The notes beneath the pieces were generated by a model. The model did no database searches, was not told the DNA's origin, and was given only the letters and a program-made list of their open reading frames with translations. Made by a program: the position numbers and the translations under genes. Shown here piece by piece: positions 4,767 through 34,235 of a stretch of 37,785 bases of DNA. Positions within the stretch are counted from its first letter, which is position 1. The number at the start of each line of letters is the position of its first letter. The DNA is from Parabacteroides sp. (lineage in GTDB: Bacteria; Bacteroidota; Bacteroidia; Bacteroidales; Tannerellaceae). Location: assembly GCA_022775005.1 (NCBI GenBank), contig JALFJR010000104.1:1-37785 (forward strand). The letters are read 5' to 3'.

Positions 4767-4793
4767 ACTTCGTATTCGTATTAACCGAACCGC

Positions 4794-6032: not shown

Positions 6033-6071
6033 ACTTTTCTTCCTTATATATTATATATGTATAAATACGGA

Positions 6072-12584: not shown

Positions 12585-12590
12585 AACGCT

Positions 12591-20782: not shown

Positions 20783-20815
20783 GCATTTGTTTAATTGAAA
20801 AGAATCGCTGACTCC

Positions 20816-21400
20816 ATGGAAAATAATTCGCTTAATTGGTATATAGCCATAGTAACTCCCAACACCGAAAAGGCGCATGAACAGAAGTTAGCAGATTGGG
20901 CGAAACGCAAATCAAGTTTGGTTGAAACCTATGTTCCTTCACAGCGTGAACTGCACGAATGGCCCAGCATCAGTAAACGCAAATGGATAGATCGTGTCAT
21001 CTGCCCCGGTTTCCTGTTTATTCGCACCACGGAAAAGATCCGTTATGCCATTAAAGCGGAATGCCCCTATATCCTCCATTTCCTGAAAGATCGGGCGAGG
21101 AAGGGCAAGGAGCAGACTGTCGCTCCGTTTGCAGTCGTCCCGGAAGATCAGATGGAGGCATTCCGTCGGATGGTAGGCGATGCGGAAACCCCGATTACGA
21201 TGGATACCTCTCAACTGCATGTGGGTAGCAGGGTACGCATAAAGAGCGGAAGCCTGAAAGGACTGGAGGGTTGTCTGATTCGTGAGCCGGGGAAAAGTCC
21301 CCGATTCTGTATGCGAATCGACCTCCTCGGTTATGCGACTATGGAGATTGATGCCGCACACTTAGAGGAGGTCGATCCTAAACCTGATCAATCAAAATGA
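20816..21400 (+). CDS. UpxY-family transcription antiterminator (NusG-like)
   Basis: The product has a NusG N-terminal (NGN) domain starting NWYIAIVTPNTEKAHEQKL, the FLFIRTT segment, and a C-terminal KOW-type part with GSRVRIKSGSLKGLEGCL. I start it at ATG 20816 (194 residues); a TTG seven codons earlier is less likely. UpxY proteins bind RNA polymerase and prevent early termination in the long leader of capsular polysaccharide operons, each acting on its own locus. Here no polysaccharide gene follows: the next genes are on the minus strand and the next plus-strand gene is unknown. The gene may be an orphan left from a capsule island, or it may serve the signalling locus further downstream. 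Confidence 0.9.
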   Translation: MENNSLNWYIAIVTPNTEKAHEQKLADWAKRKSSLVETYVPSQRELHEWPSISKRKWIDRVICPGFLFIRTTEKIRYAIKAECPYILHFLKDRARKGKEQTVAPFAVVPEDQMEAFRRMVGDAETPITMDTSQLHVGSRVRIKSGSLKGLEGCLIREPGKSPRFCMRIDLLGYATMEIDAAHLEEVDPKPDQSK

Positions 21401-21804
21401 TACGTCTTGATGACATTAAATCCAGGGCAATGGGGCTTCTGCGGATCCAGATCCGAATGTCCTACAATCAACGCAGTCGGGTAGCGAATGTGCAGATCTG
21501 TCAACAGTCGCCTCAAAGCCATTTTTTGCGCCTCCGTGCGTGTATCTTGCGGTCTCTTCCCGTCTGCAGTCAAACCACCGATGTAACAGACCCCAATAGA
21601 GTGCGCATTGTGTCCTCGGCAGTGCGCTCCTACTATCTCCTCCGGCCGACCCGGCTCAATCGTGCCATCGGTCGGAATCACATAATGGTAGCCACAGCCT
21701 TTCCAACCCAACGAACGGTGATAACGATCCATATCCACCATTCGGAGGGCACTGCCCGACCGATTGGCCGAGCAATGCACAATGATCAACGTGATCTTCC
21801 GCAT
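21388..21804 (-). CDS. N-acetylmuramoyl-L-alanine amidase (Amidase_2, T7-lysozyme-like)
   Basis: The 138-residue protein is a minimal Amidase_2 domain. Likely zinc ligands are His10 (IIVHCSA), His116 (VGHSDL) and Cys126 (HCPGF); Tyr39-His40 and Lys123 are near the active site. It cleaves the amide bond between N-acetylmuramic acid and L-alanine of peptidoglycan. No signal peptide is visible. Such amidases are very common in Bacteroidota next to a smalltalk peptide and an HU-like gene, as here, in mobile or capsule islands, and their export route is unclear. A GTG at 21810 overlapping the smalltalk stop is an alternative start. Its 3' end overlaps that of upxY by 13 bases. Confidence 0.92.
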   Translation of the reverse strand: MRKITLIIVHCSANRSGSALRMVDMDRYHRSLGWKGCGYHYVIPTDGTIEPGRPEEIVGAHCRGHNAHSIGVCYIGGLTADGKRPQDTRTEAQKMALRRLLTDLHIRYPTALIVGHSDLDPQKPHCPGFNVIKTYHFD

Positions 21805-21806
21805 GA

Positions 21807-21905
21807 TCACAACAGATTAGAAACCGCACCTCCGGCGGCACCGGTCAGTACCAATTCAATCACTCGAATAATGTAGAGCACAATGCTCTTCCAGTTCTTG
21901 TTCAT
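21807..21905 (-). CDS. Smalltalk-type peptide, 32 residues
   Basis: The frame, too short for usual gene finding, encodes 32 residues: a basic start (Met-Asn-Lys-Asn-Trp-Lys) followed by one hydrophobic helix (IVLYIIRVIELVLTGAAGGA). This matches the smalltalk proteins in length, composition and place, always between an HU-like gene and an N-acetylmuramoyl-alanine amidase in Bacteroidota. Its stop is two bases before the amidase ATG, so they are coupled. A holin-like role helping the leaderless amidase to reach the wall is a reasonable inference but unproven. Confidence 0.8.
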   Translation of the reverse strand: MNKNWKSIVLYIIRVIELVLTGAAGGAVSNLL

Positions 21906-21948: not shown

Positions 21949-22446
21949 TTAAACTACATCAGGGTTCTCCGGTTCTGTCGGCTCTGGCTCGGTGGGCTCT
22001 GTCGTCGGTTCCGAGTTGGTAGTTGCCGAACTGTTGAAATCCACCTTTGTCAGCTCCACCCGTTCCGGCAACAATGCGTAGCGGAAGGTACTGTTGAGGA
22101 TGGTGTACTCCGGGCTGAACGCCGGGCGTACGCACTTGATCAACTTGGTCGTTACCTCCTCCGGGCTATTGACCGTCTTGGTGGTAATAAACTCATTGAA
22201 GAAGACTCCCATACCGTCCAACCGCACCTTGTAGCCCAAGTTCATGTGCGTTTGGCAGTAGTAGGCCAGCCGCTCGATCACTCCGATCACATCCGCTTGT
22301 GTCAAGGCAGACTCTTGTGCGATCTGCTGGGCCACCTGCTTGGTCGAGAGTGTCCCGTAATAGTAGGCCTGTGCCGAATAGACGGTTTCGCCCATGCGTG
22401 GGCCAATCTTCAACACTGTTTTGCGTGCATAAAATGGTTGTGCCAT
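21949..22446 (-). CDS. HU/IHF-family-like DNA-binding protein with acidic-proline tail
   Basis: The 165-residue protein starts at ATG 22446 (MAQPFYARKTVLKIGPRMG); a longer frame exists but begins with non-homologous hydrophobic sequence. Residues 1-125 follow the layout of the Bacteroidota HU-like family, with two helices (VAQQIAQESALTQADVIGVIERLAYY) then the strand YKVRLDGMGVFF. The last 30 residues are an acidic Thr-Glu-Pro repeat. Such proteins accompany smalltalk peptides and amidases in capsule and integrated islands. A nucleoid or island-regulatory role is inferred from the family. Confidence 0.85.
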   Translation of the reverse strand: MAQPFYARKTVLKIGPRMGETVYSAQAYYYGTLSTKQVAQQIAQESALTQADVIGVIERLAYYCQTHMNLGYKVRLDGMGVFFNEFITTKTVNSPEEVTTKLIKCVRPAFSPEYTILNSTFRYALLPERVELTKVDFNSSATTNSEPTTEPTEPEPTEPENPDVV

Positions 22447-22500
22447 AAAAATTATTGTTTTAATTGTTAATACTGTTTGTTTGTCTTCCGGATGACACTG

Positions 22501-22508
22501 CAAAGCTA
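22501..22508 (-). promoter_or_regulatory. Probable -7 box of the HU-smalltalk-amidase operon
   Basis: Minus-strand TAGCTTTG fits TAnnTTTG and stands 55 bases before the HU-like ATG. No good -33 TTTG is seen at the usual distance. Confidence 0.45.
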
Positions 22509-22617
22509 CAATCCCCCATGCCCGCAAGCCGAATATTCGCAAAAAGTCACAAAACAAAGCAAAGATTGCAAAGGCAAGCCTATCCATTTGAGTAATATAT
22601 ATAATAAGGTATAGATT

Positions 22618-23256
22618 ATGGCCGGTAAAGTAGAGTATCTTGATAAACAACGCAGCCTGCATCCGGAGTTATCGGAAGAGCTATTAGAATTGGCATGGCA
22701 CCTTCAAGACGTAGAAAAAGCGCAACAGTATGGTGCGATACTCAACACCTGCACCAGCTATTCCGAGATCGTTGAGCGGGTGTTGCATCCCATGTATGTC
22801 TGCGGAGAGGTGAATGCGTTAAAAGCCAAAAAAGAATCTTTTCTCGACTCCTTGGTCACCTTGGCCTGTTTGGAGAAACCGGGCAACGGCCATGCCGCCG
22901 TGCATCATGTGAAACAGATGCTCGACGATCCAAAGATCAAGAAAGAGCGACAACAGTTCGAGGAGCATTGCAAAATGAGGCGTTGGCTATCCCAGGGTAG
23001 CTATCCTGATCAATTGGTGGTACAACTGCAGATCGTCGTCAGAGATGCAGCGAGTGTCGCTGCCCTACTTGACTTTCTGCTGGCACATGGAGGCACAGTC
23101 GTGCAAGCCGAGGCGCAACCGAGCATAGGAGATTTTGCCCATCAGATATGTCACAGAAGCTGTTACCTATCCTGGAGGTCTCATGCCTATTTAGTCACTT
23201 GCCCATGGGAAGCTATTCCAGAGCTGCTCAGGCTGTTAGGGCGCAGGAAAAGATAA
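22618..23256 (+). CDS. Unrecognised 212-residue cytoplasmic protein
   Basis: I do not recognise this protein. It has no signal peptide or membrane segment. It is predominantly helical in the first two thirds (ELSEELLELAWHLQDVEKAQQYG, then a charged stretch of Lys and Glu around 105-125). A smaller alpha/beta-looking C-terminal part carries QLQIVVRDAASVAALLDFLLAHGG and ends in basic residues (Arg-Arg-Lys-Arg). It is divergent from the HU-like operon and is followed by its own hairpin terminator within the palindrome array. It could belong to the old island or to the downstream signalling locus. Confidence 0.7.
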   Translation: MAGKVEYLDKQRSLHPELSEELLELAWHLQDVEKAQQYGAILNTCTSYSEIVERVLHPMYVCGEVNALKAKKESFLDSLVTLACLEKPGNGHAAVHHVKQMLDDPKIKKERQQFEEHCKMRRWLSQGSYPDQLVVQLQIVVRDAASVAALLDFLLAHGGTVVQAEAQPSIGDFAHQICHRSCYLSWRSHAYLVTCPWEAIPELLRLLGRRKR

Positions 23257-23306: not shown

Positions 23307-23389
23307 AACTCGCAAGCTTGCGAGTTAGTAAGCCACAAGCTTACGGCTACCTATAGTGACAAGCTTGCGGCTTCAACAGCCGTAAGCTT
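23307..23389. repeat. Array of four AAGCTT-centred palindromes, about 23-24 bp apart
   Basis: The first unit is a perfect 20-bp palindrome, AACTCGCAAGCTTGCGAGTT (23307-23326). Three imperfect relatives follow with cores AAGCTT at 23337, 23361 and 23384, flanked by variants of CGCA, ACGGCT and GCCG. Core spacing is 23, 24 and 23 bases. The array lies between the unknown 22618-23256 gene and the LytTR gene; its last part also takes part in a terminator. Confidence 0.85.
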
Positions 23390-23410
23390 ACGAGTTGAGA
23401 AGCCGTTTTT
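23368..23410 (+). terminator. Rho-independent terminator formed by the end of the palindrome array
   Basis: CGGCTTC-AAC (23368-23377) pairs with GTT-GA-GAAGCCG (23394-23405), followed by five T. It would end the transcript of the unknown gene upstream, leaving about 60 bases for a start signal of the LytTR-led operon. Confidence 0.6.
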
Positions 23411-23466
23411 AGGGTGGTTTCTGCCCGCAGAACAATGACGATTCATTACCAATAATACAATCAATC

Positions 23467-23853
23467 ATGCATAAGAAATACATATACCTCAATTCCCGTG
23501 ATGAGTTTCTCAGGGTGGACATCTCTAAGATCGTTTACTTTGAAGCAGATGGGAATTATACACATATCATCCTGAGTAATAAAGTAAAAGGAACGGTTTG
23601 TATGAACCTCTCTCAAATGCAGAGCGCATTGACTCAAAGCCTGAAGGAGGCAGCCAGTATTTTTGCGAGAGTAGGCAAACGCCATATCATCAATCTGAAT
23701 TATGTGTATCAGATCGCCATACTTAGACAACGACTGACATTGAGTGATGGCGAGCATTTTGAGTATGTAATCAGTGTTTCCAAAGAAGCCCTGAAGAAAC
23801 TTCGGAGCTTATATATTAGCGGACTCAGTAATATCATTCCATTCAATGAATAA
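23467..23853 (+). CDS. Stand-alone LytTR DNA-binding regulator
   Basis: The 128-residue protein consists almost only of a LytTR domain: VDISKIVYFEADGNYTHI at 17-34 and the ARVGKRHIINLNYV segment at about 74-87, both family signatures. It lacks the receiver domain of AlgR/AgrA-type regulators, so it cannot take a phosphate from a histidine kinase in the usual way. LytTR domains bind short direct repeats; the palindrome array just upstream is a possible target. The stop overlaps the next start by eight bases (ATGAATAA), so it is coupled to the FHA-like protein and leads the signalling operon. Confidence 0.9.
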   Translation: MHKKYIYLNSRDEFLRVDISKIVYFEADGNYTHIILSNKVKGTVCMNLSQMQSALTQSLKEAASIFARVGKRHIINLNYVYQIAILRQRLTLSDGEHFEYVISVSKEALKKLRSLYISGLSNIIPFNE

Positions 23854-24664
23854 CCAAGGAGCTATTCCCCAATTGCTGAAAGGGAAGAAAATATGGGTGG
23901 GTAAGGATCCTACCAAAAGTCGCTTACAGGTCTATGTGATGATTAATGGACAGCCCAAAAGCGCATTGATAGGTACGGAGGGAAGTGTTCCTTCATCAGT
24001 AAGCCGATGCGTGCCGGAACAACAGGCTGCGCATATAACGCTGGAAATAAGTCAGGAGGGAGCCATATCCGTTACTAACCTCAAACCGCAAAATGTCTCT
24101 TATGTCAATGGCATAGAGATTCTTACTAAAAGAGTCTCAGGCAATGATACCCTTGAACTGGGAAAAGATCGATTTCCGGTTCAGGTGTCCATGATTTTTT
24201 CAATAACTGAGAAGATTATCCTTGCTTCAGGAGGAGCCAAGGAAAAACAAACATTCAATATCGCACCGCTCGAAAAGGTCTGGAATGTCTATCATGATAA
24301 AGGAATAAGCCTGCAAAGGCAAGCAAAGCAACAGGCTGTACAAGCACGTATTCCTATGTTCTTCACAATGGGAGGAGGAGCCATCTCTTCCATAGCTTTT
24401 GTTTGTGGATGGGGCAATGAGGTCAAAGGCATTTGTGTGACACTCACGCTTATCGGACTGTTCATCATGTGGTACACATTTATGAAAACAAAAAATGATA
24501 CCTCTATCGAAGAGCGTGAGCGCATCACGGAAGAATTCCAAGATCAGTATGTTTGCCCTAATCCTCAATGCAGGAAGTTTTTGGGCAATTACTCCTATCG
24601 GCTTATGAAACGACAGTATTCGATGACATGTCCATTTTGCAAGTGTAAATTTATAGAGGAATAA
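23846..24664 (+). CDS. Membrane protein with FHA-like domain and C-terminal zinc ribbon
   Basis: The 272-residue protein has three parts. Residues about 13-115 resemble a divergent FHA domain: VSR at 52-54, AAH at 61-63, and NVSYVNG at 83-89, in the order of the phosphothreonine-binding loops. Two hydrophobic helices lie at about 171-189 and 195-213. The C-terminus is a zinc ribbon with Cys237, Cys242, Cys262 and Cys265. With two helices, both ends would be cytoplasmic. FHA domains read phosphothreonine, and the Ser/Thr kinase gene starts two bases after this gene, so it is the likely membrane-bound reader or scaffold for that kinase. The FHA assignment is moderate because the loop before His63 is longer than usual. 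Confidence 0.7.
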   Translation: MNNQGAIPQLLKGKKIWVGKDPTKSRLQVYVMINGQPKSALIGTEGSVPSSVSRCVPEQQAAHITLEISQEGAISVTNLKPQNVSYVNGIEILTKRVSGNDTLELGKDRFPVQVSMIFSITEKIILASGGAKEKQTFNIAPLEKVWNVYHDKGISLQRQAKQQAVQARIPMFFTMGGGAISSIAFVCGWGNEVKGICVTLTLIGLFIMWYTFMKTKNDTSIEERERITEEFQDQYVCPNPQCRKFLGNYSYRLMKRQYSMTCPFCKCKFIEE

Positions 24665-24665
24665 G

Positions 24666-26189
24666 ATGCAAACACAAGGATTAAATAAAGGCGCATTGCT
24701 GCGCCATGAAACCTATAGAATCGAAAAGATACTGGGACAAGGAGGGTTCGGTATCACCTATTTAGCGACAGATTTGTCGCTTGACAGGTTGGTCGCTATC
24801 AAGGAGTTTTTCCCAAAGGATTATTGTGAACGAGATCACGACACCAGCCATCTCTCGATCGGGACAAGTGGCTCTTCGGATTTCGTCTCACGGTTAAAGG
24901 CTAAATTCTTGAAAGAGGCACGTAATATCGCCAAGTTCGATCATCCCGGAATTATCAAGATTCATGCCGCCTTTGAGGAGAACAACACAGCGTATTATGT
25001 GATGGATTACATAGAGGGCGAGTCACTTTCTGATAAGATCAAGCGTGAAGGTCCCTTGTCAGAGGAGGCAGCCCTCAACTATATCACAAAAGTGGGAGAG
25101 GCATTGACGTATATTCATCAACAGAAAATGAATCACTTGGATGTTAAGCCCGCTAACATCATGATCAGGCAAGTGGATAATTCCCCCATTCTCATTGATT
25201 TTGGGTTATCCAAACAATATGATTCGGAAGGGAATCAAACCTCCACAACCCCCGTGGGAATCAGTCATGGTTTCGCACCGTTAGAGCAGTATAATGATGG
25301 AGGCGTGAAAGAGTTCTCTCCACAGACAGATATCTACTCTTTAGCCGCTACGCTCTATTATTTGGTGTCAGGGGTAACTCCTCCTCATGCGACGCAATTG
25401 ATTGAGGAAGAAATATCGTTTCCTACCGGATTCCCTGCCAATCTTATATCGGCGATTTCCATAGCCATGTCTTCCGCTCGTAAGCACCGGTATAGCGATG
25501 TATCCTATTTCTTGGCTGCACTAAAGCCAACAGATGAAGCGACAGACATAGCTGCTCCCCCGGTTGTCTCAGTCCCTCCATCAACATCGGAACCTATTAA
25601 GCCTATCGAGCAGACACCAACTGTCTCAAAAACGGAAGAAAGAGCTAAGCCAAATCTAATCAAATGGCTAATGCTAATTGGGACTATTCCTGTGGTGATT
25701 GTTATGTTCGCAATTTATTCCTGGCGCAAAGAAACAAGCAAGGCTGTAAGTAATCCTGTACCTACAAAAGAGATCACACAGGATACAGTGACAGAAACGA
25801 ATAAGAAAGCTGCACCACCGACGAGAAAGCTAATGAACTACCAGTCAGCCTTTGGTGAATGTGTATATGCTGGAAAAGTTGATCCAAATGGCTATCCTCA
25901 TGGTCATGGAATAGCCATTTGGAATGAAGAATATATGGATACACAAACTGCGACGAAGAGAAAAAGAGATGCGCAAAAATATGATGGGCAATGGGTACAT
26001 GGAGTTATGGAAGGGGAAGCTACCTATACGTTACAGTGTGGAGACACTTTTGTGGGCACTTTCCAAAATAACGAGTATCAAAAAGGTCGCTATACTATCA
26101 AAAGCTCCGGTGAGTATTTTGAAGGCACTTTCAAAAATGGACAGCCTAATCAAGGCTATTGGTATGATAAGAATGGGAATAGACTATAA
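24666..26189 (+). CDS. Membrane-anchored Ser/Thr protein kinase with C-terminal MORN repeats
   Basis: The 507-residue protein has a Hanks-type kinase domain at residues 15-285: glycine loop GQGGFG (24-29), VAIK with Lys46, Glu84 of helix C, catalytic loop HLDVKPAN (157-164) with Asp159, DFG (178-180), and APLEQY in place of APE. The residue before Asp159 is Leu, so it is a non-RD kinase. A proline-rich linker (290-330) leads to one membrane helix (about 333-353). The part outside, residues 395-507, carries MORN-type repeats (YDGQWVHGVMEGEATY, GTFQNNEYQKGRY, FEGTFKNGQPNQGYWY). With the kinase inside the cell, the MORN part is periplasmic and may be the sensor. A PP2C phosphatase and an FHA protein are encoded downstream. 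Confidence 0.92.
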   Translation: MQTQGLNKGALLRHETYRIEKILGQGGFGITYLATDLSLDRLVAIKEFFPKDYCERDHDTSHLSIGTSGSSDFVSRLKAKFLKEARNIAKFDHPGIIKIHAAFEENNTAYYVMDYIEGESLSDKIKREGPLSEEAALNYITKVGEALTYIHQQKMNHLDVKPANIMIRQVDNSPILIDFGLSKQYDSEGNQTSTTPVGISHGFAPLEQYNDGGVKEFSPQTDIYSLAATLYYLVSGVTPPHATQLIEEEISFPTGFPANLISAISIAMSSARKHRYSDVSYFLAALKPTDEATDIAAPPVVSVPPSTSEPIKPIEQTPTVSKTEERAKPNLIKWLMLIGTIPVVIVMFAIYSWRKETSKAVSNPVPTKEITQDTVTETNKKAAPPTRKLMNYQSAFGECVYAGKVDPNGYPHGHGIAIWNEEYMDTQTATKRKRDAQKYDGQWVHGVMEGEATYTLQCGDTFVGTFQNNEYQKGRYTIKSSGEYFEGTFKNGQPNQGYWYDKNGNRL

Positions 26190-26216
26190 ATCCTTGTATG
26201 TTTAGATCATTTAGCG

Positions 26217-27008
26217 ATGAATAAATCAATTATTATTTGTTTGATATGCTCGATGGCATTGAGCATGCCCTACGCTTCATTTGCGCAAGGAAGGATCGTT
26301 AGACCTTCAAAACGACAAACGGAACAAACACAAACTGCTGTGCCTAAACAAGATAGTTCCCAAAAGATTAGTGGGTCTAAAGAATTACTGGCTCAAAAGT
26401 TTCATTGGGATGAATATGGCATTTGCCAAGATCAAATTGTTGATTTAGGACTCTCTGTGAAATGGGCTGGTTGGAATATAGGTGCATCTGCCCCTGAACA
26501 ACCCGGCCAAATCTTTGGTTGGGGAGATCCATCAGGACAGGAAACAGTTGCAGATCTATCTAAGTATCCTACCTTGGATCCACCAAAGAGTATTTGTGGA
26601 GATTCACGCTACGATATGGCGACTGTTAATTGGGGTAAACCATGGCGATTACCTAATAAAAAGGAACTTAAAGAGCTGATGGATAAATGCACATGGATAC
26701 CTTTCCAATACAAAGGAAGTAAGGGCGCTAAAGTGACAGGGACAAATGGCAATACAATATTTATGCCTATTTCAAAGGTGCGATTTAGTAATCTTAATTT
26801 TAAAACATTAGAATGGAGCGATTTGAAAACATACTTTTTGGACTTTTATACCTGTTATTATTCCGGCGATATATTATTCAATGATGCTGTTCAAACTGAC
26901 AATGCTTATAACCTAACCTTTGAAATTCAAAATGATTCAATCTCTACAACGCTGAATAGTAACCGTAGATGTTTTGCATTCCCGGTCAGAGCTGTTTATG
27001 CTCAATGA
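26217..27008 (+). CDS. Secreted FISUMP-type protein, copy 1
   Basis: The 263-residue protein has a signal peptide (1 to about 23, MPYASFAQ) and then a low-complexity Gln/Thr/Lys region. The main domain starts with DQIVDLGLSVKWAGWNIGASAPE and includes FGWGDPSGQE, YDMATVNWGKPWRLPNKKE and a C-terminal FPVRAVYAQ. This is the Bacteroidota domain often labelled FISUMP or major paralogous domain, found in many secreted surface proteins of unknown function. Its first 136 bases are nearly identical to those of the copy at 27876. It starts 27 bases after the kinase stop, so the kinase operon exports at least this product. No lipobox is seen. Confidence 0.85.
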   Translation: MNKSIIICLICSMALSMPYASFAQGRIVRPSKRQTEQTQTAVPKQDSSQKISGSKELLAQKFHWDEYGICQDQIVDLGLSVKWAGWNIGASAPEQPGQIFGWGDPSGQETVADLSKYPTLDPPKSICGDSRYDMATVNWGKPWRLPNKKELKELMDKCTWIPFQYKGSKGAKVTGTNGNTIFMPISKVRFSNLNFKTLEWSDLKTYFLDFYTCYYSGDILFNDAVQTDNAYNLTFEIQNDSISTTLNSNRRCFAFPVRAVYAQ

Positions 27009-27030
27009 GCGTTTCTCGGGAGATCTTAAA

Positions 27031-27144
27031 ATGGCTAAATCATTTCCTGTAATAAACGACCTATTTCATACAAGATCAGCGATTGTTGTTGGTGCTCAGA
27101 CATTGACCGACTACATTTTAGATAGTGTTCAAATCAAGACATAA
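27031..27144 (+). CDS. Candidate 37-residue small protein within the duplicated unit
   Basis: An ATG frame encodes 37 residues starting MAKSFPVINDLFHTRSAIVV and ending with a TAA 13 bases before the next gene. The second copy of the unit keeps the same frame for 20 residues (AKSFPVINDLFHTRSAI) and remains open to 28914, but starts with ACG in place of ATG. Conservation of the frame in both copies argues for a real peptide or for the tail of a once larger protein. No hydrophobic segment or known motif is visible. Confidence 0.45.
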   Translation: MAKSFPVINDLFHTRSAIVVGAQTLTDYILDSVQIKT

Positions 27145-27157
27145 TAGATAATTAATT

Positions 27158-27883
27158 ATGGATAAGCTTTATAAACTCCCTAAAACAGAGTTGTTCCGTT
27201 ATGACTTAAAGTGTCCTCCACCCGCTTGGAGTAATGATTTCCATAGTGTTGAGTACTCTAAAGACAATAAGGGGGAAACCAAATATAAAAATAACGCTGG
27301 CTTGTTCTTCTTTTTTGAAAATAAAAATGCGGCAATGCTTACTGCAGAAAAGGCTATGAATAGATTTGAGGGATCGAAAATTTGGCTTACCTCAACAACT
27401 ACAAAAGAAGAGGCGAATCTGTTAGATTTGCGAGGTGGTGCGACGTTGGCGATGATGAATTTGCTTTGGTGTGCTGATATAGATATTTTTAATCAAAACA
27501 TGACCGTATCAGGTATGGGGGATGACACAACCTCTCTTTCCTGTTTAGAAACTCTTTTCTTTCGTGTAATAGACAGCAATGTTCCAAATGATGAGGATTA
27601 CCACAAGGCCTATCTCGACCTTCATAAACCATTTGTTTGCCCTGGTAATCCTTTTAGTTTGTTAGGCCAAAGATTGACTGATTATGAGAATGGGAGTATT
27701 TTTAAACAGCTATTAAAGGAGAAAAATTATGATGGTTATATTTTTGATGAATCCTTTGGTGGTTCTACGATTTGTTTACTCAATGCGGAGAAGCTAACAA
27801 ATCCAATATGTGAAGAATATAATTGTAAAAGAATGTTAGAATGGAAACGTAAATACTACCTAGAAATTGCAAGTTATGAATAA
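27158..27883 (+). CDS. Unknown protein with features of an ADP-ribosyltransferase-like fold
   Basis: I do not recognise a named family. The 241-residue protein has no signal peptide or membrane segment. Its layout recalls ART/RES-type folds: a first strand with Arg (LFRYDL), then AGLFFFFENKNAAMLTAEKA (the usual GxFF strand and A-rich helix), a strand KIWLTSTTT ending in LLDL, and at the C-terminus LLKEKNYDGYIFDE followed by TICLLNAEKLTNP, very like the GYDGiif...NpeqI end of many ADP-ribosyltransferases. Codon use looks more AT-rich than the kinase. It sits between the two cassette copies and its end overlaps the second FISUMP start by eight bases. A toxin or effector role is an inference only. 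Confidence 0.6.
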   Translation: MDKLYKLPKTELFRYDLKCPPPAWSNDFHSVEYSKDNKGETKYKNNAGLFFFFENKNAAMLTAEKAMNRFEGSKIWLTSTTTKEEANLLDLRGGATLAMMNLLWCADIDIFNQNMTVSGMGDDTTSLSCLETLFFRVIDSNVPNDEDYHKAYLDLHKPFVCPGNPFSLLGQRLTDYENGSIFKQLLKEKNYDGYIFDESFGGSTICLLNAEKLTNPICEEYNCKRMLEWKRKYYLEIASYE

Positions 27884-28790
27884 ATCAATCATTATTTGTT
27901 TGATATGCTCGATGGCATTGAGCATGCCCTACGCTTCATTTGCGCAAGGAAGGATCGTTAGACCTTCAAAACAACAAACGGAACAAACACAAACTGCTGT
28001 GCCTAAACAAGAAAATCCTCAAAGGGCTGAGCCTCCTAAAAAGACAATAAAGCAACAAGTCAGTCGAGATGAGTATGGCATTTGCCAAGATCAAATTGTG
28101 GATTTAGGACTCTCAGTGAAATGGGCAGGTTGGAATATAGGAGCGTCTGCTCCTGAACAACCCGGCCAAATCTTTGGCTGGGGAGACCCATCAGGACAGG
28201 AAACAGTCGCCGATGAATCCAAGTATCCCTCCATGAATCCACCCAAAAATATTTGCGGTGATCCACGCTACGATATGGCCACGGCTAATTGGGGTAAACC
28301 TTGGCAATTACCAAGCGTTCAGGAAATGGAGGAATTGCTCTATAAGTGCGAATGGGAATATACTCAATATAAAGGATATAAAGGATATAAAATCACAGGC
28401 CCCAATGGGAATGCGATATTTTTACCTTACACACCCATTCGGAGGGCTGTTTATGATAACAATGAAAAAAGATATAGTAAATTGGTAACTAATGCTTCAC
28501 CCGAAAAGTTACTGTATTATGTGGGCGAACTTGCGGCTGGATTTTCAGTTCAATTATTAGAAGTTTGGAGTAGTCCCAAGCTGTCAGCTGAGAATAAAGA
28601 AGCAACAAAAAATCAGAATCAAGTATCATCTGGGGTGACTTTAAAAGCATTACCCAGGCTATCGGTGGCAGCTCAAACCAGTAAAAAGACCTCATCAACG
28701 AGTGGACCAGAAAAGCCACAAAGCAAAAAAATTGGATTCGGTTATTTTAGGTATGAGGCCTTCCCTGTTAGGGCTGTTTATGTTCAATGA
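27876..28790 (+). CDS. Secreted FISUMP-type protein, copy 2
   Basis: The 304-residue paralog of the gene at 26217 has the same signal peptide and a nearly identical first 45 residues. DQIVDLGLSVKWAGWNIGASAPE, FGWGDPSGQE and YDMATANWGKPWQLPS follow as in copy 1. Downstream of about residue 165 it differs fully, with a longer Ser/Lys/Gln-rich insert before the shared end FPVRAVYVQ. I start it at ATG 27876, where copy 1 also starts; a TTG nine bases upstream has no support. The ATG overlaps the end of the ART-like gene by eight bases. The pair may bind different partners while sharing export and the core fold. Confidence 0.85.
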   Translation: MNKSIIICLICSMALSMPYASFAQGRIVRPSKQQTEQTQTAVPKQENPQRAEPPKKTIKQQVSRDEYGICQDQIVDLGLSVKWAGWNIGASAPEQPGQIFGWGDPSGQETVADESKYPSMNPPKNICGDPRYDMATANWGKPWQLPSVQEMEELLYKCEWEYTQYKGYKGYKITGPNGNAIFLPYTPIRRAVYDNNEKRYSKLVTNASPEKLLYYVGELAAGFSVQLLEVWSSPKLSAENKEATKNQNQVSSGVTLKALPRLSVAAQTSKKTSSTSGPEKPQSKKIGFGYFRYEAFPVRAVYVQ

Positions 28791-28947
28791 GTGTTTGAGG
28801 AATCTCTTGCAAACGGCTAAATCATTTCCTGTAATAAACGACCTATTTCATACAAGATCGGCGATTGGAATTGGTGCTCAACCTCCGCCTAACTACATTT
28901 GTGATCATACTTAGAACAAGTCATTAAAAGATAATCAATTATGGATA
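27876..28947 (+). repeat. Duplicated cassette unit, copy 2
   Basis: Homologous to 26217-27164, including the region after the FISUMP stop (28815-28875) and the AGATAATCAATTATGGATA around the next start codon at 28941. The open frame matching the tiny ORF of copy 1 is read here from ACG at 28812 to a TAG at 28912-28914. Confidence 0.8.
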
Positions 28948-29783
28948 CAACGAACTATACTGGTACATTACGTGCTGAAGCAATTCCTAACGAACAGGGA
29001 ATCTCAAAGGAAACTATGCATACCGTGCTTGCAGCTGCTACAGGAGCTGCTGCCGGTGGATATATTCCACTGCTGCTGGGAAAGATCAAGGAGAGTTTAC
29101 CAATCAATCAAGTAGCAGAAGAAAACGACAACACGCCTGTTGACGCTGCCAATGATACGCCTGTGGATGCTTCATCTGTGGATACAGCCAACGCTACGCA
29201 GGCAACAACAGCCTGGGCAGACGAGCAGATTCGAGTAGCTACTGGTGTAAAAGATGAGATGTCTTTCAGTGAGGCTTTTGCCACCGCACGTGCAGAGGTA
29301 GGCCCTGGTGGTGCGTTTGAATGGCATGGTAATATTTACGGTACCTATTATGCGACCGAATGGAAAGCCATGTCCGCAACAGAGATCGCAGAATATGAAA
29401 GTCATTTTCGTTGGAATCAAATAGAAACTCCTTCTACCAGCTCAGCCATTGTATCGCATACACAAGCTACGGATAACTCCGTTGAGGTTCTTGCAGCAGA
29501 ACCTGAAGTAGAAGTACTTGGAGTCGTTCACGACTATGCGACTGACATGAATATTGGAGGGATGCGCATTGATGGCCAAGATGTCTTCCTGTTAGATGTG
29601 AATGGAGATTTGGAGTTTGACTATATGGCCTCAGACCTGAACCATAACAGTCAATTAGAAGAAGGAGAGATGGCCGCTATTCAGGGACAAAGCCTGTCGG
29701 TAGGAGACCTTGGAGGCGTGAGTGGTACGATCGACTCTTCACTTTCAGCAGATTCCTCCGGTGAACATATCTATGAAGTTTAG
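28941..29783 (+). CDS. Unrecognised protein with EF-hand-like loops
   Basis: The 280-residue acidic protein has a Gly/Ala-rich, mildly hydrophobic segment at 26-48 (TVLAAATGAAAGGYIPLLLG) that could insert in a membrane, and then a Asn/Thr/Asp-rich linker. A compact block follows at 106-158 (FSEAFATARAEVGPGGAFEW, then NIYGTYYATEWKAM). Near the C-terminus two loops look calcium-binding: DVNGDLEFD at 219-227, and DLNHNSQLEEGE at 232-243, which fits the 12-residue EF-hand pattern. No signal peptide is seen. The compact block seems to be a conserved module, but I cannot name it. It lies between kinase and phosphatase genes, so it is a candidate substrate of the circuit. Confidence 0.7.
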   Translation: MDTTNYTGTLRAEAIPNEQGISKETMHTVLAAATGAAAGGYIPLLLGKIKESLPINQVAEENDNTPVDAANDTPVDASSVDTANATQATTAWADEQIRVATGVKDEMSFSEAFATARAEVGPGGAFEWHGNIYGTYYATEWKAMSATEIAEYESHFRWNQIETPSTSSAIVSHTQATDNSVEVLAAEPEVEVLGVVHDYATDMNIGGMRIDGQDVFLLDVNGDLEFDYMASDLNHNSQLEEGEMAAIQGQSLSVGDLGGVSGTIDSSLSADSSGEHIYEV

Positions 29784-29813
29784 CGGCACGCATGAGCTTT
29801 GGTGAATGACAAT

Positions 29814-30392
29814 ATGGAATCGATGAATGAGATTTTACAAATAAAATGCCCGTGGTGTAGCGCAGTTTTAACTGTTCGGAATCAAGCTGACATTGCGTCT
29901 AAAAACGTCACTTGCCCGATATGCAAAAGACAATCTCCTTTTGTGTTGTTTAAGGCTGTGCTACCCCAAGCGGAAGCGCATACATGCTACCCTCAGCCCA
30001 ACGAAGTCTCACGGAATGCACAAGGAATCGCTTCAGAAGATCTTCGTATTGGAAAAATTATTGTAGCGGATAAGGGCTTGTCTTTCCAATTGAAATGTGG
30101 AAAAAATATCGTGGGGCGTTTAGCTTCAGGCACAAAGGCTGACATCAAAATTGACGAGGGGGGAACGAAAAAAATCAGTAGGGAGCACCTGATCGTTGAA
30201 GTGACCCGTATTCCCGGAAAAGGATTTGTTCATATCGCCTCTTTATATAAGGAACGGGTGAATCCCACCTATATCAACCAAACCCCATTGCTATATGGCG
30301 ACCATATCATTCTTCAAACGGGAGATCGAATCATTCTGCCGAATGTTGCACTCAGATTTGAAATTCCAGATGAAGAGGCAACGGAGTTATAA
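29814..30392 (+). CDS. Zinc-ribbon and FHA-domain protein
   Basis: The product, 192 residues from ATG 29814 (ATG 29823 and upstream TTG or GTG codons are alternatives), begins with a four-cysteine ribbon (CPWC then CPIC, about 17 residues apart). Its C-terminal half is a good FHA domain: IVGR, then ISREHL (the Ser-Arg-x-x-His-like phosphothreonine loop), PTYINQTPL, and a GDRIILP end. It is soluble, with no signal peptide. FHA domains bind phosphothreonine peptides made by Hanks-type kinases; the PP2C phosphatase gene starts 12 bases downstream and the kinase is in the same gene run. It is most likely the soluble reader of this circuit. Confidence 0.88.
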   Translation: MESMNEILQIKCPWCSAVLTVRNQADIASKNVTCPICKRQSPFVLFKAVLPQAEAHTCYPQPNEVSRNAQGIASEDLRIGKIIVADKGLSFQLKCGKNIVGRLASGTKADIKIDEGGTKKISREHLIVEVTRIPGKGFVHIASLYKERVNPTYINQTPLLYGDHIILQTGDRIILPNVALRFEIPDEEATEL

Positions 30393-30404
30393 ACAGTTTA
30401 GACG

Positions 30405-31205
30405 ATGAAATACGCACTGAAAGTATATGGCATTTTAGAGGTGGGGAAAAGAACCGATGAGCAAGGCCATCCCCACCAAGAGGATTGTATATATCCTTCT
30501 ATGGAGCAACTATCTGATAAGGAGAGACTGTTTATACTCTGCGATGGCATGGGTGGGCATGACTCTGGGGAGGTGGCCAGCAGTACCGTTTGCCAGACAA
30601 TGAGTAATTACATTGTTCATCACACGGCAACTAACACCTTTTCAACATCCGATTTGCAGCAGGCACTCACTGCCGCCTTTGATGCCTTGGATACCCAAGA
30701 CACCAGTGCAGCTAAGAAGATGGGAACAACCTTAGCCCTGCTTAAACTGCACAAAGAGGGAGGCACCATCGCACACATGGGAGACAGCCGAGTTTACCAT
30801 ATTCGCCCGGGCAAGAGTGAAATGGATACGAGTATCTTGTTTGTGACGGAAGACCATTCATTGGTCAACTGCTTGGTCAAAATAGGTGAACTTACCAAAG
30901 AGGAGGCTCGACATTCCAAGCAGAAGAACATCATCACACGAGCCATGCAGCCCCATTCGGATCGGCCAAAACCGGATATAACTTTGATCACCGATATACG
31001 TCCAGATGATTATTTTGTCCTTTGTTCCGATGGCATGTTAGAACAAGATGAGATGGAAGATGGTACCGTTCTGAAACGTATATTCTCCAAGTGTGTACCC
31101 ACAGACGAAGAAAAAGTGGCCATTCTGAAAGGAGCCACCGCAGAGAATAACGATAATCACTCCGCTTTAATCATCCATATTACTGCGGTAATTGATGAAC
31201 GGTAA
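30405..31205 (+). CDS. PP2C-family Ser/Thr protein phosphatase
   Basis: The 266-residue protein is a single PPM/PP2C domain. It shows HQED near residue 25-28, DGMGGHDSGE at 47-56 (metal-binding Asp47 and Gly48), a GTTLALL strand, AHMGDSRVYHIR, TEDHSL, FVLCSDGML with the third metal Asp, and NDNHSALII at the end. All metal ligands appear present, so it should be active. It removes phosphate from Ser/Thr and would reverse the action of the kinase encoded 4 kb upstream in the same direction. No membrane segment. Spacing to the FHA gene (12 bases) indicates co-transcription. Confidence 0.93.
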   Translation: MKYALKVYGILEVGKRTDEQGHPHQEDCIYPSMEQLSDKERLFILCDGMGGHDSGEVASSTVCQTMSNYIVHHTATNTFSTSDLQQALTAAFDALDTQDTSAAKKMGTTLALLKLHKEGGTIAHMGDSRVYHIRPGKSEMDTSILFVTEDHSLVNCLVKIGELTKEEARHSKQKNIITRAMQPHSDRPKPDITLITDIRPDDYFVLCSDGMLEQDEMEDGTVLKRIFSKCVPTDEEKVAILKGATAENNDNHSALIIHITAVIDER

Positions 31206-31248
31206 TTGCTGTATCCATTCAGGCTCATAAAACTAATAAATACTCGAT

Positions 31249-31581
31249 ATGAAGCAATTAAAGAAACCAATATCCATCATATGTCAACGGATTCAGAATG
31301 AAATAATCATTTGGATATCATTCTTAATCTGTCTTGTGGTAATCTTTGCCTATCATGCGGTAAGCAAAGAATGTCTTTTATCCCAGTTTTCGTCGATTCT
31401 AAATTTTATTTCCGAGTATCAGACTGAAATCATTAGTTTAGCGATCAGTTATATAGCCGGTGTCATCTTCTATGTGTTTAGCGTCTTAATCCCTTATGCG
31501 CTGATTGAGGTCAATAGAAAGGAGGTTGCCCTCTATCATAAATTAGCGAAACGTATCTATATTAGTGAGGTGTCTCAGTAG
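31249..31581 (+). CDS. Small two-helix membrane protein
   Basis: The 110-residue protein has two hydrophobic segments (about 17-38, IIIWISFLICLVVIFAY, and about 60-86, IISLAISYIAGVIFYVFSVL), a basic N-terminus and a basic, Lys/Arg-rich C-terminus. No family is recognised. It begins 43 bases after the phosphatase stop and is the last gene before a hairpin terminator, so it probably belongs to the signalling operon, possibly as a membrane partner of the kinase or of the FHA protein. Confidence 0.7.
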   Translation: MKQLKKPISIICQRIQNEIIIWISFLICLVVIFAYHAVSKECLLSQFSSILNFISEYQTEIISLAISYIAGVIFYVFSVLIPYALIEVNRKEVALYHKLAKRIYISEVSQ

Positions 31582-31594
31582 TGGATGAGAGGAA

Positions 31595-31626
31595 CACTCA
31601 CAGTACTCCTGTAACGAGTGCTTTTT
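31595..31626 (+). terminator. Terminator of the signalling operon
   Basis: CACTC-ACAG (31595-31603) pairs with CTGT-AAC-GAGTG (31609-31620), with a three-base bulge, followed by five T at 31622-31626. It begins 14 bases past the stop of the small membrane protein. Confidence 0.65.
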
Positions 31627-31681
31627 CTCAAAAACACTGCCCAATATTTGTAGCACAGAGAAGAAACATTTATTTCGCAGT

Positions 31682-31753
31682 ATCTTAGCAGACAAAAACA
31701 TAGTGGAATATTAAGCGAAGGGTGTATCATCGTCACAGTGATACACCTTTTTT
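31682..31753 (+). ncRNA. Candidate small RNA ending in a strong terminator hairpin
   Basis: A perfect 9-bp stem, GGTGTATCA (31721-31729) with TGATACACC (31739-31747), is followed by six T. Because the signalling operon already ends at 31626, this second terminator needs another transcript. Upstream, TTTG (31647-31650) and TTATTTCG (31670-31677) stand 19 bases apart, a partial match to the Bacteroides promoter. An RNA of about 72 bases would result. No frame of useful length lies inside. Confidence 0.35.
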
Positions 31754-31834
31754 ATAGTTCCCTCCTTGCATAAGCCAAGAAATCTCTGTTCCTTTGCAGA
31801 AATAAACTTGCTGTAATTTACAAATCTGTAAAGT

Positions 31835-33145
31835 ATGAGATTCTATGATCGAGAGAATGAAATAGCAACCTTGTTGAGGCTGGATCAACAGTCCGAACAA
31901 TCAGCCCAATTCACGGTGCTCATAGGGCGTCGTCGCACAGGTAAGACAACCTTGATGACACAGGCTTTCGCCGACAAAAAGTATCTCTATTTCTTTATAG
32001 GGAAAAAGGCGGAATCCATACAGTGCATGGAATTCCAGAAACAAACCGAGGAAGTATTAGGATTGCGCATACATGGACAAATCACTCGTTTCGCCATTCT
32101 ACTTGCGGAGATTCTACGCTATAGTGAATCCCAGCAGGTAACCCTCATCATTGATGAGTTTCAGCGTTTAGCGGAAATCGGAGATGGGATTATCAGTGAC
32201 ATCCAACGGGTTTGGGACGCTCACCAAGCTAATGCTCGTGTGCATCTGATTGCTTGTGGCAGTATTTACAGTATGATGCGCAAAATCTTTGAGGATCGGA
32301 AAGAGCCGCTCTTTGGGCGAAAGACCGCACGTATCGACTTGAAGCCATTCTCTATCAAGGTGCTGAAAGAAATCTTAGGTGATTACCATCCTGACTATAC
32401 ACCGGAGGATCTGCTCATGCTCTATGCGATCACCGGCGGAGTGGCCAAGTATGTTGCTCAATTGATGGACGATGGGTGCAAGACATGGGAGGATATGTTG
32501 CGCAATGTCTGTCGCTCATCCAGCATCTTCATTGAGGAGGGCACAGAGTTATTGGTCGGCGAGTTTGGCCGTAGATTCCAAATCTATTACAGTATCCTCC
32601 AACTGATTGCTTCGGGCCTAACCAGCCCCTCTGAAATAAACAGCATCATTCAGAAGAATACAGGCCGCTACTTAGATACCCTTGAACAGGAGTATTCGCT
32701 CATCCAGAAACGTAGGCCAATATGGTCAAAGCCCAATAGCCAAGGCGTAAAATATTACATCAATGATTGTTTCTTGATGTTTTGGTTCAGATTCATCGAA
32801 AGCAACCGTTCTATCGTGGAATTAGGAAAGTTTGACCTGTTGGAGGAATTGATTCGCCAGGATTATCCACAATATAGCGGGATGATCTTAGAAAAATATT
32901 TCCGGCAACTTTATGGCGAGAAAGAACGTGTGACGGAGGTATCTCACTGGTGGGATAGCCACGGCGAAAACGAGATCGACTTAATCGCGATCGAGAAGCT
33001 GGATAAACGAGCCACTGTCGCAGAGGTAAAACGAAACATCCGAAAGTATAACCCTGCCGTATTGGCGGAAAAATACCAGCACATTAAGCGCCATTTCCAG
33101 GGATATAGCGTGGAGTTGATCGGGCTTTCCATGGAAAATATGTGA
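31835..33145 (+). CDS. AAA-type ATPase with DUF234/nuclease-like C-terminus
   Basis: The 436-residue protein belongs to the archaeal-type ATPase family with a C-terminal DUF234 domain. Walker A is GRRRTGKTT (31-39), Walker B is LIIDEFQRL (about 105-113), and a sensor-like ACGS follows. A winged-helix part lies at about 250-300. The C-terminal domain ends with ENEIDLIAIEKLDKRATVAEVKRN, in which Asp and the Glu-x-Lys pair fit a PD-(D/E)xK nuclease core. Such genes are scattered singly in Bacteroidota and archaea; their role is unknown, with mobile-element or DNA-related functions suggested. It is separated from the signalling operon by two terminators, so it is probably independent. Confidence 0.88.
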   Translation: MRFYDRENEIATLLRLDQQSEQSAQFTVLIGRRRTGKTTLMTQAFADKKYLYFFIGKKAESIQCMEFQKQTEEVLGLRIHGQITRFAILLAEILRYSESQQVTLIIDEFQRLAEIGDGIISDIQRVWDAHQANARVHLIACGSIYSMMRKIFEDRKEPLFGRKTARIDLKPFSIKVLKEILGDYHPDYTPEDLLMLYAITGGVAKYVAQLMDDGCKTWEDMLRNVCRSSSIFIEEGTELLVGEFGRRFQIYYSILQLIASGLTSPSEINSIIQKNTGRYLDTLEQEYSLIQKRRPIWSKPNSQGVKYYINDCFLMFWFRFIESNRSIVELGKFDLLEELIRQDYPQYSGMILEKYFRQLYGEKERVTEVSHWWDSHGENEIDLIAIEKLDKRATVAEVKRNIRKYNPAVLAEKYQHIKRHFQGYSVELIGLSMENM

Positions 33146-33180
33146 TAGCTGTATTGACGGCTTTCCTATCCTGACGTTCA

Positions 33181-34017
33181 CTAAAGCCGTTTCTCCAACA
33201 CCAATTGATGGCGACACTGCACCCCATTTTCCCAAATGGGTTCCGCATAGTGACGGGTGAAATAGTCACGCTCCAAGGAGATCAGGTCAAAGCCCTCCTG
33301 CTGATAGAGCAAGAGCGGAGGAACCGCACTGCTTCCCGTACGGATGATCAACCGATGAATCCCCTTTGCCGTTGCCCACTGCGTGGAGACAAAGCGTAGC
33401 AATCGGCGAGCGATGCCTCTCCCCCGAAAGAGCGGTGCTACTGCCAAGTTCATGATCTCCGCTTCTCCGCTTGCCATAGGCTTCACGACTATGACTCCTA
33501 CACAAGCTCCCCGCCACAGGGCCACAAACGCATCCGATACCTTCCAGTAGGCATCCACCTTCGCTTGATCGGGATCCGCATCGAGCAGCAAGGGATAGGG
33601 AGGATAGGTAGCCGGAGCGATCTCTGGTTCCCCAAAAGCCACTAACTCCACCCGGTTACCATCCGGATCAAGAATCACCCCTTCATAGTAGCCATCACCA
33701 GAGGTGCGAGGTTCACCGGCAATGACATAGCCTGCCTGACGGAATCGCTCTATCTGCTGATTGACCTCTTGCTTGGAACGGATATGGAAAGCCAAATGCG
33801 CCAAGCCGATATATTCCTTCTCTCGCTGTTCGGTGACATCTGTTCGCTGCATGATCTCCAGCGCTGGCCCACTCTCAAAATAGATAAAATAGGAAGCGAA
33901 GCCCTTCTTCGGGTTCACATATTTCTCATTACTCATCCCGTTAAAATAACGTACATAAAAATCCCGCAACGTCTCCAACTGCGTTGTCCATAGGGCGATA
34001 TGCGTAAGTGCTGCCAT
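33181..34017 (-). CDS. Fusion of a VOC (glyoxalase-like) domain and a GNAT acetyltransferase
   Basis: Residues 1 to about 127 are a VOC domain: HIALWTTQLETLRDFYVRYF at the start, then AHLAFHI and a LDPDGNRVELV end, with His6, Glu54-like and Glu124-like metal positions plausible. Residues about 150-278 are a GNAT domain: the acetyl-CoA loop is VAPLFRGRGIARRLL, preceded by the EIMNLAV strand and followed by LYQQEGFDLISLERDYF. The two parts are in one uninterrupted frame with a Pro-rich joint at 131-142, so this is a true fusion. Substrates are unknown. VOC and GNAT enzymes both occur in resistance to small toxic molecules, which is suggestive only. Confidence 0.88.
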   Translation of the reverse strand: MAALTHIALWTTQLETLRDFYVRYFNGMSNEKYVNPKKGFASYFIYFESGPALEIMQRTDVTEQREKEYIGLAHLAFHIRSKQEVNQQIERFRQAGYVIAGEPRTSGDGYYEGVILDPDGNRVELVAFGEPEIAPATYPPYPLLLDADPDQAKVDAYWKVSDAFVALWRGACVGVIVVKPMASGEAEIMNLAVAPLFRGRGIARRLLRFVSTQWATAKGIHRLIIRTGSSAVPPLLLYQQEGFDLISLERDYFTRHYAEPIWENGVQCRHQLVLEKRL

Positions 34018-34125
34018 AGAAAAAGCTTGCTTTAGGTTATATTTGTTGCGAAGGTACTAAAACCACCTAGAAGAGAAAACGCAACTGGCAAATTACTCAC
34101 TTTATTTATTGACAGTAAATAAATA

Positions 34126-34209
34126 CACCACGGTACACTTGAGTGAATGTACCGTGGTGCACACGATTGAATGTACCACGGTGTACTTGCGCGACTACAC
34201 CGTGGTACA
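34126..34209. repeat. Four CCACGG/CCGTGG elements at exact 24-bp spacing forming two hairpins
   Basis: Cores lie at 34128, 34152, 34176 and 34200, in alternating orientation. Elements 1 and 2 form a 12-bp perfect stem with a 10-base loop. Elements 3 and 4 form a 14-bp perfect stem (TGTACCACGGTGTA with its complement), also with a 10-base loop, followed by seven T on the plus strand. Elements 2 and 3 can pair with each other as an alternative. The 218-base gap between the VOC-GNAT gene and the Big_2 protein gene holds this array and no convincing gene; it may end the minus-strand operon coming from 36.2 kb. Confidence 0.85.
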
Positions 34210-34235
34210 TTTTTTTGACTGTTTCGGAGCGTATT

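Follow-up and report, generated by a model that had tools for sequence, protein, structure and literature searches.

Introduction

The threonine phosphorylation pathway of type VI secretion systems (T6SS) joins a membrane kinase, a PP2C phosphatase and an FHA protein (PpkA/PppA/Fha), and TerY-P triads combine a kinase and a PP2C with a metal-ribbon partner. Here we analyze a ten-gene operon from a Parabacteroides sp. (positions 23467–31581, + strand) that shares the membrane kinase, PP2C and FHA components of the former and the kinase, PP2C and metal-ribbon partner of the latter; it lies in a stretch of 37,785 nucleotides (contig JALFJR010000104.1, assembly GCA_022775005.1), referred to hereafter as the window. 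The operon differs from PpkA/PppA/Fha in its LytTR protein, its zinc ribbons, a client that we term the EF protein and outer domains that vary between loci, with no secretion apparatus found, and from TerY-P triads in the absence of vWA/TerY and TerD from the 20 window proteins scanned. We consider it fairly probable that a trans-envelope phospho-signalling system of the Bacteroidia is present here in an accessory form that can be exchanged as a cassette; no description of this locus was found in the open-access PMC literature.

Three other systems bear comparison. In the GarA/OdhI FHA switch of the Actinobacteria, kinases phosphorylate a threonine in an N-terminal segment that is next bound by the FHA domain of the same protein (PMC2784874); a kinase-targeted threonine segment read by FHA domains is likewise predicted in our locus, with the difference that the motif is spread over the kinase linker, the membrane client and the zinc ribbon–FHA protein and that there is no link to a 2-oxoglutarate enzyme. 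The kinase-kinase-phosphatase module KKP resembles the window in setting a kinase and a phosphatase in an accessory element (PMC11341870), whereas the window has a trans-envelope kinase, predicted FHA readers and the EF client. NTP-dependent conflict systems contain sporadic kinase, FHA and caspase parts and an actinobacterial kinase–PP2C–vWA theme (PMC7159879); in contrast, the window operon is without a MoxR/vWA or STAND core, the caspase-like protein of its relatives is apparently secreted and the kinases look active.

An earlier reading of this stretch from its letters and open reading frames (ORFs), hereafter the sequence-only reading, had proposed a separate Bacteroidota phospho-signalling system. 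That proposal is upheld by a gene set that recurs as a unit and is neither a T6SS nor a TerY-P set, and it is extended here by a core relative on contig C51 of the same genome, a caspase-like gene in relatives, a shared threonine motif and an exact cassette exchange.

A ten-gene operon with kinase, phosphatase and FHA genes

The operon is a real unit, comprising the following ORFs.

23467–23853, + strand: LytTR protein without a receiver (Pfam LytTR, E 1.1e-10)
23846–24664, + strand: FHAtm, with a divergent FHA domain, a hydrophobic stretch at about residues 169–213 and a C-terminal zinc ribbon (hydropathy; core-family alignment)
24666–26189, + strand: Ser/Thr kinase with a transmembrane segment near residues 329–350 and an outer MORN part (Pfam Pkinase, E 3.5e-37; MORN, E 9.1e-6; hydropathy)
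26217–27008, + strand: secreted FISUMP/Lcl_C-like protein 1 (hydrophobic N-terminus; sub-threshold Lcl_C match; homology to copy 2)
27158–27883, + strand: orphan ORF flanked by the two FISUMP genes (resembling ART/RES by eye alone)
27876–28790, + strand: secreted FISUMP/Lcl_C-like protein 2 (direct repeats with copy 1; similarity to a kinase-fused domain of locus L036)
28941–29783, + strand: EF protein, 280 residues, N-terminal MDTTNY (new family)
29799–30392, + strand: ZnFHA, with an N-terminal zinc ribbon, an FHA domain and a C-terminal EATEL (Pfam FHA, E 1e-5)
30405–31205, + strand: PP2C phosphatase (Pfam PP2C_2, E 1.9e-13)
31249–31581, + strand: small protein with two hydrophobic stretches, not conserved (hydropathy)

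These positions agree with those of the sequence-only reading, as does its description of one strand with tiny gaps and 8-base overlaps (the latter at 23846/23853 and 27876/27883, other gaps being 1–43 bases), apart from gaps of 149 and 150 bases 3' of FISUMP copies 1 and 2. As to its single end terminator, two hairpin-like sites follow the last gene, but the scanned region holds 15 terminator-like sites against 8.9 ± 2.7 expected. A promoter scan of the region was at chance (26 matches vs 24.1 expected), and a Bacteroidota-type promoter pattern gave two window matches, none near the operon, with 0.87 expected.

The kinase carries the consensus catalytic motifs of its family (GQGGFG, AIKE, HLDVKPAN and DFG), as does the PP2C (DGMG, GDSR and NDN). 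The assertion that kinase, phosphatase and two FHA-type proteins all have intact motifs is borne out for the kinase, the PP2C and ZnFHA; it does not extend to FHAtm, as set out below. The joint presence of kinase, PP2C and FHA, as in PpkA/PppA/Fha, could also mean that the operon regulates, after translation, a type VI-like secretion machine whose genes lie in another part of the genome. We find this scarcely credible: no secretion gene is present among the 20 window proteins scanned or among ten proteins scanned from loci L035/L036, and a search of the own genome for one T6SS part, VipB (PF05943), gave no match, although a divergent sheath might escape it. Membership of a T6SS was rejected on the lack of secretion genes among these proteins and of a VipB match, and membership of a TerY-P triad on the lack of vWA/TerY and TerD among the 20 window proteins scanned.

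The backbone recurs in other genomes and in a core paralogue

When named genomes were scanned with one peptide pattern, 117 related stretches were recovered, the best 80 of which yielded 76 loci (some cut by contig ends, some near-duplicates). Profile searches recognized the EF protein in 74 of these loci, PP2C in 68, ZnFHA in 67, the kinase in 61, FHAtm in 48, LytTR in 32 and FISUMP-type proteins in 23. All bear titles of Bacteroidota taxa except a metagenome-assembled genome (MAG) titled Clostridium, which falls among Bacteroidales in the PP2C tree. The standing of the LytTR protein as a conserved member is supported by 76% identity in both L146 and L151. We define the EF-type form by an EF protein with the family signature given below and by a ZnFHA and a PP2C downstream of its gene with a kinase in the same run, and the window is of this form.

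A protein search with FHAtm matched 96 of the 123 genomes of the family, counting the own genome, where contig C51 carries a further, 25% identical match; a first scan of genome contigs with the window FHAtm gave no relative. The C51 order is LytTR–FHAtm–84-residue acidic protein (acid84)–ZnFHA–PP2C–kinase (with a weak WG repeat)–beta-barrel-like protein–kelch protein. The complete core order LytTR–FHAtm–(acid84)–ZnFHA–PP2C–kinase is found in 42 of 52 fetched family loci, a chosen subset of the FHAtm matches to which G051, G102 and G114 contribute two loci each; four are EF type and six partial or empty.

The backbone therefore recurs together across families, across orders and in the core paralogue, and because it does so, the objection that these genes might not be found together in other genomes does not hold. 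The same recurrence tells against neighbouring yet independent genes, a highly implausible account for which one could cite the two gaps of ~150 bases, the promoter scan at chance, and the orphan ORF and last membrane gene, which are not conserved.

The operon occupies an exchangeable slot

Alignment of the window with the sister genome G039 is colinear at 96.3% from 7931 (the edge of the fetched stretch) to 23402 and at 97.5% over 31613–34123, and between these edges G039 holds 16.0 kb of other genes in place of window 23403–31612. Because colinearity breaks at 23402 and resumes at 31613, the exchanged segment is exactly the operon. Encoded in the G039 cassette are a C14 peptidase, two CHAT-TPR proteins, one TPR protein and one that joins MORN and trypsin; further matches there, HEPN and sigma-70 region 2 among them, stay below threshold. 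A third state occurs in G062, where window positions 20340 and 33181 are adjacent (an empty site). The cassette boundaries can thus be read directly from the sequence; the slot itself is bounded by a 212-residue ORF and an AAA ATPase gene, with the following features at its edges.

20795–21400, + strand: NusG antiterminator upstream of the slot, which we take to be UpxY-like (Pfam NusG, E 5.5e-6; 94.5% identity with G039)
21388–21810, – strand: N-acetylmuramoyl-alanine amidase, slot flank (Pfam Amidase_2, E 2.8e-18)
21949–22662, – strand: HU-HIG DNA-binding protein, slot flank (Pfam HU-HIG, E 4.1e-15; 98.7% in G039)
22618–23256, + strand: 212-residue ORF, the final shared gene left of the slot (99.5% in G039; no Pfam match)
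23310–23402, no strand: palindromic AAGCTT-type repeats, left edge of the exchanged segment (colinearity with G039 stops at 23402)
31602–31751, + strand: terminator-like hairpins (31602–31622 and 31717–31751), with the right edge of the exchanged segment at 31613

A setting of NusG/UpxY, amidase and HU-HIG genes is that of Bacteroides capsule loci, and since the slot starts after such genes, the operon might be a surface-polysaccharide or envelope regulator tied to the upstream antiterminator, as capsule operons are. We regard this as distinctly improbable, given that no glycan-synthesis family occurs among the ten operon proteins and that the corresponding left flank stands before an unrelated cassette in G039.

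The AAGCTT-centred palindromes (23310–23402) have 17 matches in the own genome including themselves, several of which are both strands of one place, and window 34124–34221 is a short dispersed repeat found in several other places in the own and sister genomes. The alternative 16-kb cassette is located at G039:C32, L235:15473-18501 and L232:1-13515. In L151 (852–8202) the EF locus adjoins homologues of the 771- and 1547-residue proteins of the window (10269–17234; 41% and 26% identity); at E 1e-10 none of the remaining 75 named loci matches these two proteins.

Placement of the window was examined in a midpoint-rooted PP2C tree of 89 of 122 sequences (core copies thinned to 12, six duplicate loci omitted). 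The window groups with two Muribaculaceae MAG loci (support 95/97) within a 14-row clade (99/98), whereas the EF-type loci that belong to its family (G051, G070, G114 and G007) fall elsewhere. The 12 core copies form one clade (99/91), but EF-type loci from other orders (L137, L139 and L219) surround it, so that the tree does not split into an EF-type and a core branch; the core could have arisen by simplification of an EF-type system. The window operon is a divergent copy of the core locus of its own genome, probably acquired horizontally, which is the simplest reading of this placement.

A new protein family and a shared acidic threonine motif

The EF protein has no match in Pfam, NCBIfam or PHROG. 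A single-sequence search recovered it in 14 of 393 genomes of the order, and a 16-row profile in 7 of 123 family and 5 of 395 phylum genomes (own included in each). Invariant and near-invariant positions of a 48-row alignment give the signature SFxxAFAxARxxVGxGGxFxWxGxxYxT, present in the window at residues 108–135. The window protein has a weak hydrophobic segment, a conserved domain at about residues 91–155 and a second domain at about 190–260; AlphaFold gives means of 92–97 for ten-residue blocks over residues 91–150 and 191–260, with disordered ends (whole-model mean 69.0, predicted template modelling score 0.40), and Foldseek returned no PDB match to this model at E <= 0.001. By alignment and model, the EF protein founds a new family with two confidently predicted domains. 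The EF-hand label of the sequence-only reading finds no Pfam match in the window and retains one EF-like 12-residue loop identified by eye, at residues 232–243 (29634–29669).

An acidic motif centred on threonine is found in three of the backbone proteins, as in EF N-termini (MNDETIFD, MNTEDTVYD, MDTTILN; often in tandem), kinase juxtamembrane linkers (EEETTLV, DDEATV, DEETKV) and ZnFHA linkers (DSDTILV, EGDKTEI). We counted a loose pattern ([DE]x?Tx-hydrophobic) and a strict one ([DE][DEA]Tx[ILVFM]) against shuffles, which control for composition only; only segments in which a script located cysteines, a GR anchor or a hydrophobic stretch entered the counts, each set of identical proteins as a single entry. 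The loose motif is present in the juxtamembrane segments of 42/43 core kinases (14.8 ± 3.0 in shuffles) and 61/87 kinases from EF loci (17.0 ± 3.4), in ZnFHA linkers from 24/43 core loci (vs 6.5) and 35/67 EF loci (vs 8.1), and in 67/79 EF N-termini (vs 16.1) or, within the first 25 residues, 64/80 (vs 12.8 ± 3.1). No excess is seen in the outer parts of the kinases (29/43 vs 25.7 and 31/87 vs 34.3) or of the EF proteins (34/79 vs 54.1), nor in PP2C tails (23/64 vs 25.7). Under the strict pattern an excess persists in kinase linkers (30/43 vs 2.9; 38/87 vs 2.6), at the N-terminus of EF proteins (39/79 vs 2.7) and in the ZnFHA linkers of EF-type loci (9/67 vs 1.2). The loose motif is also present in the first 40 residues of 26 of 28 acid84 rows, a count made without shuffle control. 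In the window, the kinase linker carries EATDI (residues 291–295; 25536–25550).

By analogy with GarA/OdhI, the enrichment suggests that the motif in kinase, FHA protein and EF protein is a shared phospho-acceptor read by FHA domains. The earlier idea that the EF protein is a client of the kinase is made likely by the enrichment at its N-terminus.

Outer sensors and FISUMP proteins

Pfam matches to both Pkinase and MORN, on either side of a predicted transmembrane segment, agree with the description of a membrane kinase with an outer MORN part. Across EF loci, 72 kinase outer segments reached a length of 60 residues or more (duplicates mostly removed beforehand), and 71 of them, all but L207, were compared with Pfam. 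At E 0.001 they gave matches to 67 families, most often Lcl_C (9), FGE-sulfatase (8), MORN (8), Sel1 (4) and PEGA (4), with two each for WG and Fib_succ_major; several of the rare family matches are coiled-coil or otherwise weak. Judged from these matches, the outer parts are very diverse and the sensors interchangeable.

The two FISUMP genes of the window are a tandem duplication enclosing the orphan ORF, with direct repeats of 148 nucleotides (96%) and 300 nucleotides (82%), and 3' ends and spacers (39 and 114 nucleotides) at 85% and 80%. By Pfam the FISUMP label is weak (copy 1 matches Lcl_C at E 0.0083, under the cut-off; copy 2 has no match), but copy 2 is 44% identical to the kinase-fused domain of L036. 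Kinase–FISUMP fusions occur in 18 of 96 non-duplicate EF-type loci, and L087 and L146 each have a FISUMP gene directly after a kinase whose outer part resembles that of the window. On these grounds the two unfused FISUMP proteins studied here are likely partners of the window kinase, in keeping with the helper role first proposed for them.

The spacers 27009–27157 and 28791–28940 are mutual repeats (80%) in which the reading frame AKSFPVINDLFHTRSAI is partly conserved by eye; they are perhaps a small-gene remnant. The L146 locus contains (3096–6636) a kinase–FISUMP–ORF block in reverse orientation, next to two small genes that by eye resemble a PIN toxin–antitoxin.

A caspase-like gene in relatives and an orphan ORF in the window

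Of 96 non-duplicate EF-type loci, 59 contain an ORF of 240–275 residues with SGHG...DAC motifs, mostly between the EF and ZnFHA genes (the exact order EF–caspase–ZnFHA in 32); if the window, the core locus and six duplicates are added back, the counts become 63/104 and 34. Among the named loci the ORF is present in 48 of 76. The motif pair served as the criterion, with a Pfam check on three loci, all of which gave Peptidase_C14 (E 4.6e-19 to 1.7e-21). The two of these three that were inspected have signal-like N-terminal stretches by eye, and the peptidase of the relatives is apparently secreted. In L159 (7135–8578; Bacteroides caecigallinarum) a secreted-looking LRR_5 protein (354 residues) and a 128-residue protein precede the EF–caspase pair; ORFs of similar size stand before EF–caspase in many other loci (compared by size only, with the L147 sequence also read).

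The EF and ZnFHA genes of the window are 15 bases apart, leaving no room for a caspase gene, and in L146 and L151, its closest relatives by the PP2C tree, they are adjacent with no caspase-like ORF. The own draft genome (97.9% complete) has no C14 match.

The orphan ORF (27158–27883) has no match in Pfam, PHROG or PDB sequences, so that its ART-like label is not confirmed by any hidden Markov model or PDB sequence, and a single-sequence model has an unusable fold (mean predicted local distance difference test score 31). A place for it as client or regular member is likewise not supported: it is matched in 2 of 393 genomes of the order, own included, and is absent from all 76 EF loci at E 1e-3. 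Distant homologues lie in G462, next to an HNH_5 gene, and on a 56-kb Phocaeicola massiliensis plasmid (30%), and searches of phages and viral contigs gave no relative. A three-row alignment shows conserved LxRY and GYxFxExF. Nor is regular membership supported for the small membrane protein that ends the operon, which is found in 1 of 123 family genomes (its own) and in none of the 76 EF loci.

The caspase-like ORFs, together with the exact swap against a MORN-trypsin/CHAT/caspase cassette in G039 and the empty site in G062, raise the alternative of a conflict or phage-defence island, in which the kinases would sense infection or envelope attack and trigger a killing effector (the caspase in relatives, perhaps the orphan ORF here); KKP is a known prophage kinase-kinase-phosphatase defence module (PMC11341870). 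We judge the defence alternative rather unlikely. PADLOC matched the kinase alone, and its best matches there, mad6 and PD-T4-6, look like kinase similarity of a general kind; the draft genome gave no C14 match; and the core relative, in contrast to a defence island, is very common in the family, with constant neighbours that include a hexapeptide-transferase gene.

A model for the signalling system and its limits

The signalling reading that we favour can be set out as a sequence of steps, in which phosphorylation, output and any conflict role are inferred. The MORN part, helped by the secreted FISUMP proteins in a co-receptor role, would detect an outer ligand and so switch the kinase on. 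The kinase would then phosphorylate threonines in acidic linkers, namely its own EATDI, the EF N-terminus and the ZnFHA tail or linker; once phosphorylated, these sites would be recognized by ZnFHA and FHAtm, and the EF protein would be clustered or rearranged as a result, its outer domains passing the change across the membrane. PP2C would reset the system and the LytTR protein would provide a transcriptional output. In about six in ten of the relatives examined, the EF protein may hold or release the caspase-like peptidase, and the window branch, without this effector, would be a signalling-only or differently armed form.

Several observations weigh against this picture. The FHA domain of FHAtm scores 12.6 bits, below the Pfam cut-off of 20.7 (71 bits in the core copy), and alignment to the core family reveals an insertion between SR and H; the protein is called FHA because it is homologous to the core copy, and of the two FHA-type proteins only ZnFHA can therefore be said to have intact motifs. 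The membrane segment of the EF protein is weakly hydrophobic (best 19-mer 1.55), which leaves its topology uncertain. The strict threonine pattern is at chance in core ZnFHA linkers (1/43 vs 1.2), and because the pattern was defined after reading the sequences and the rows are related, independent motif events are fewer than the counts. In the window itself the EF motif is weak (DTTNY) and lacks the strict pattern, and in ZnFHA the motif is absent from the linker and appears as EATEL at the C-terminus (30375–30389). LytTR was recognized in only 32 of the 76 EF loci, in some since contigs end, and hhalign gives acid84 a 15% probability of being a short EF relative. Gene set, cassette boundaries, tree placement and motif enrichment stand as sequence-level results.

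A broader proposal, which we advance as a tentative possibility, is that these loci form a large inside-out signalling and conflict system of the Bacteroidia, undescribed in open-access PMC: kinases with swappable outer sensors would phosphorylate the short cytoplasmic EF tail, FHA readers would lock the state, and the outer half of the EF protein would gate a periplasmic caspase-like protease, the window operon being a caspase-less cassette that alternates with a CHAT/caspase/trypsin cassette in a single slot of the chromosome.

If the signalling reading is true, phospho-threonine signals would be relayed across the inner membrane in the Bacteroidota through a defined acceptor motif, readers dedicated to it and a new client family, with an interchangeable repertoire of sensors wired to a common output. 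It would offer concrete, testable targets in a handful of threonine residues, and would link these kinases to a caspase-like protease gene in many relatives.

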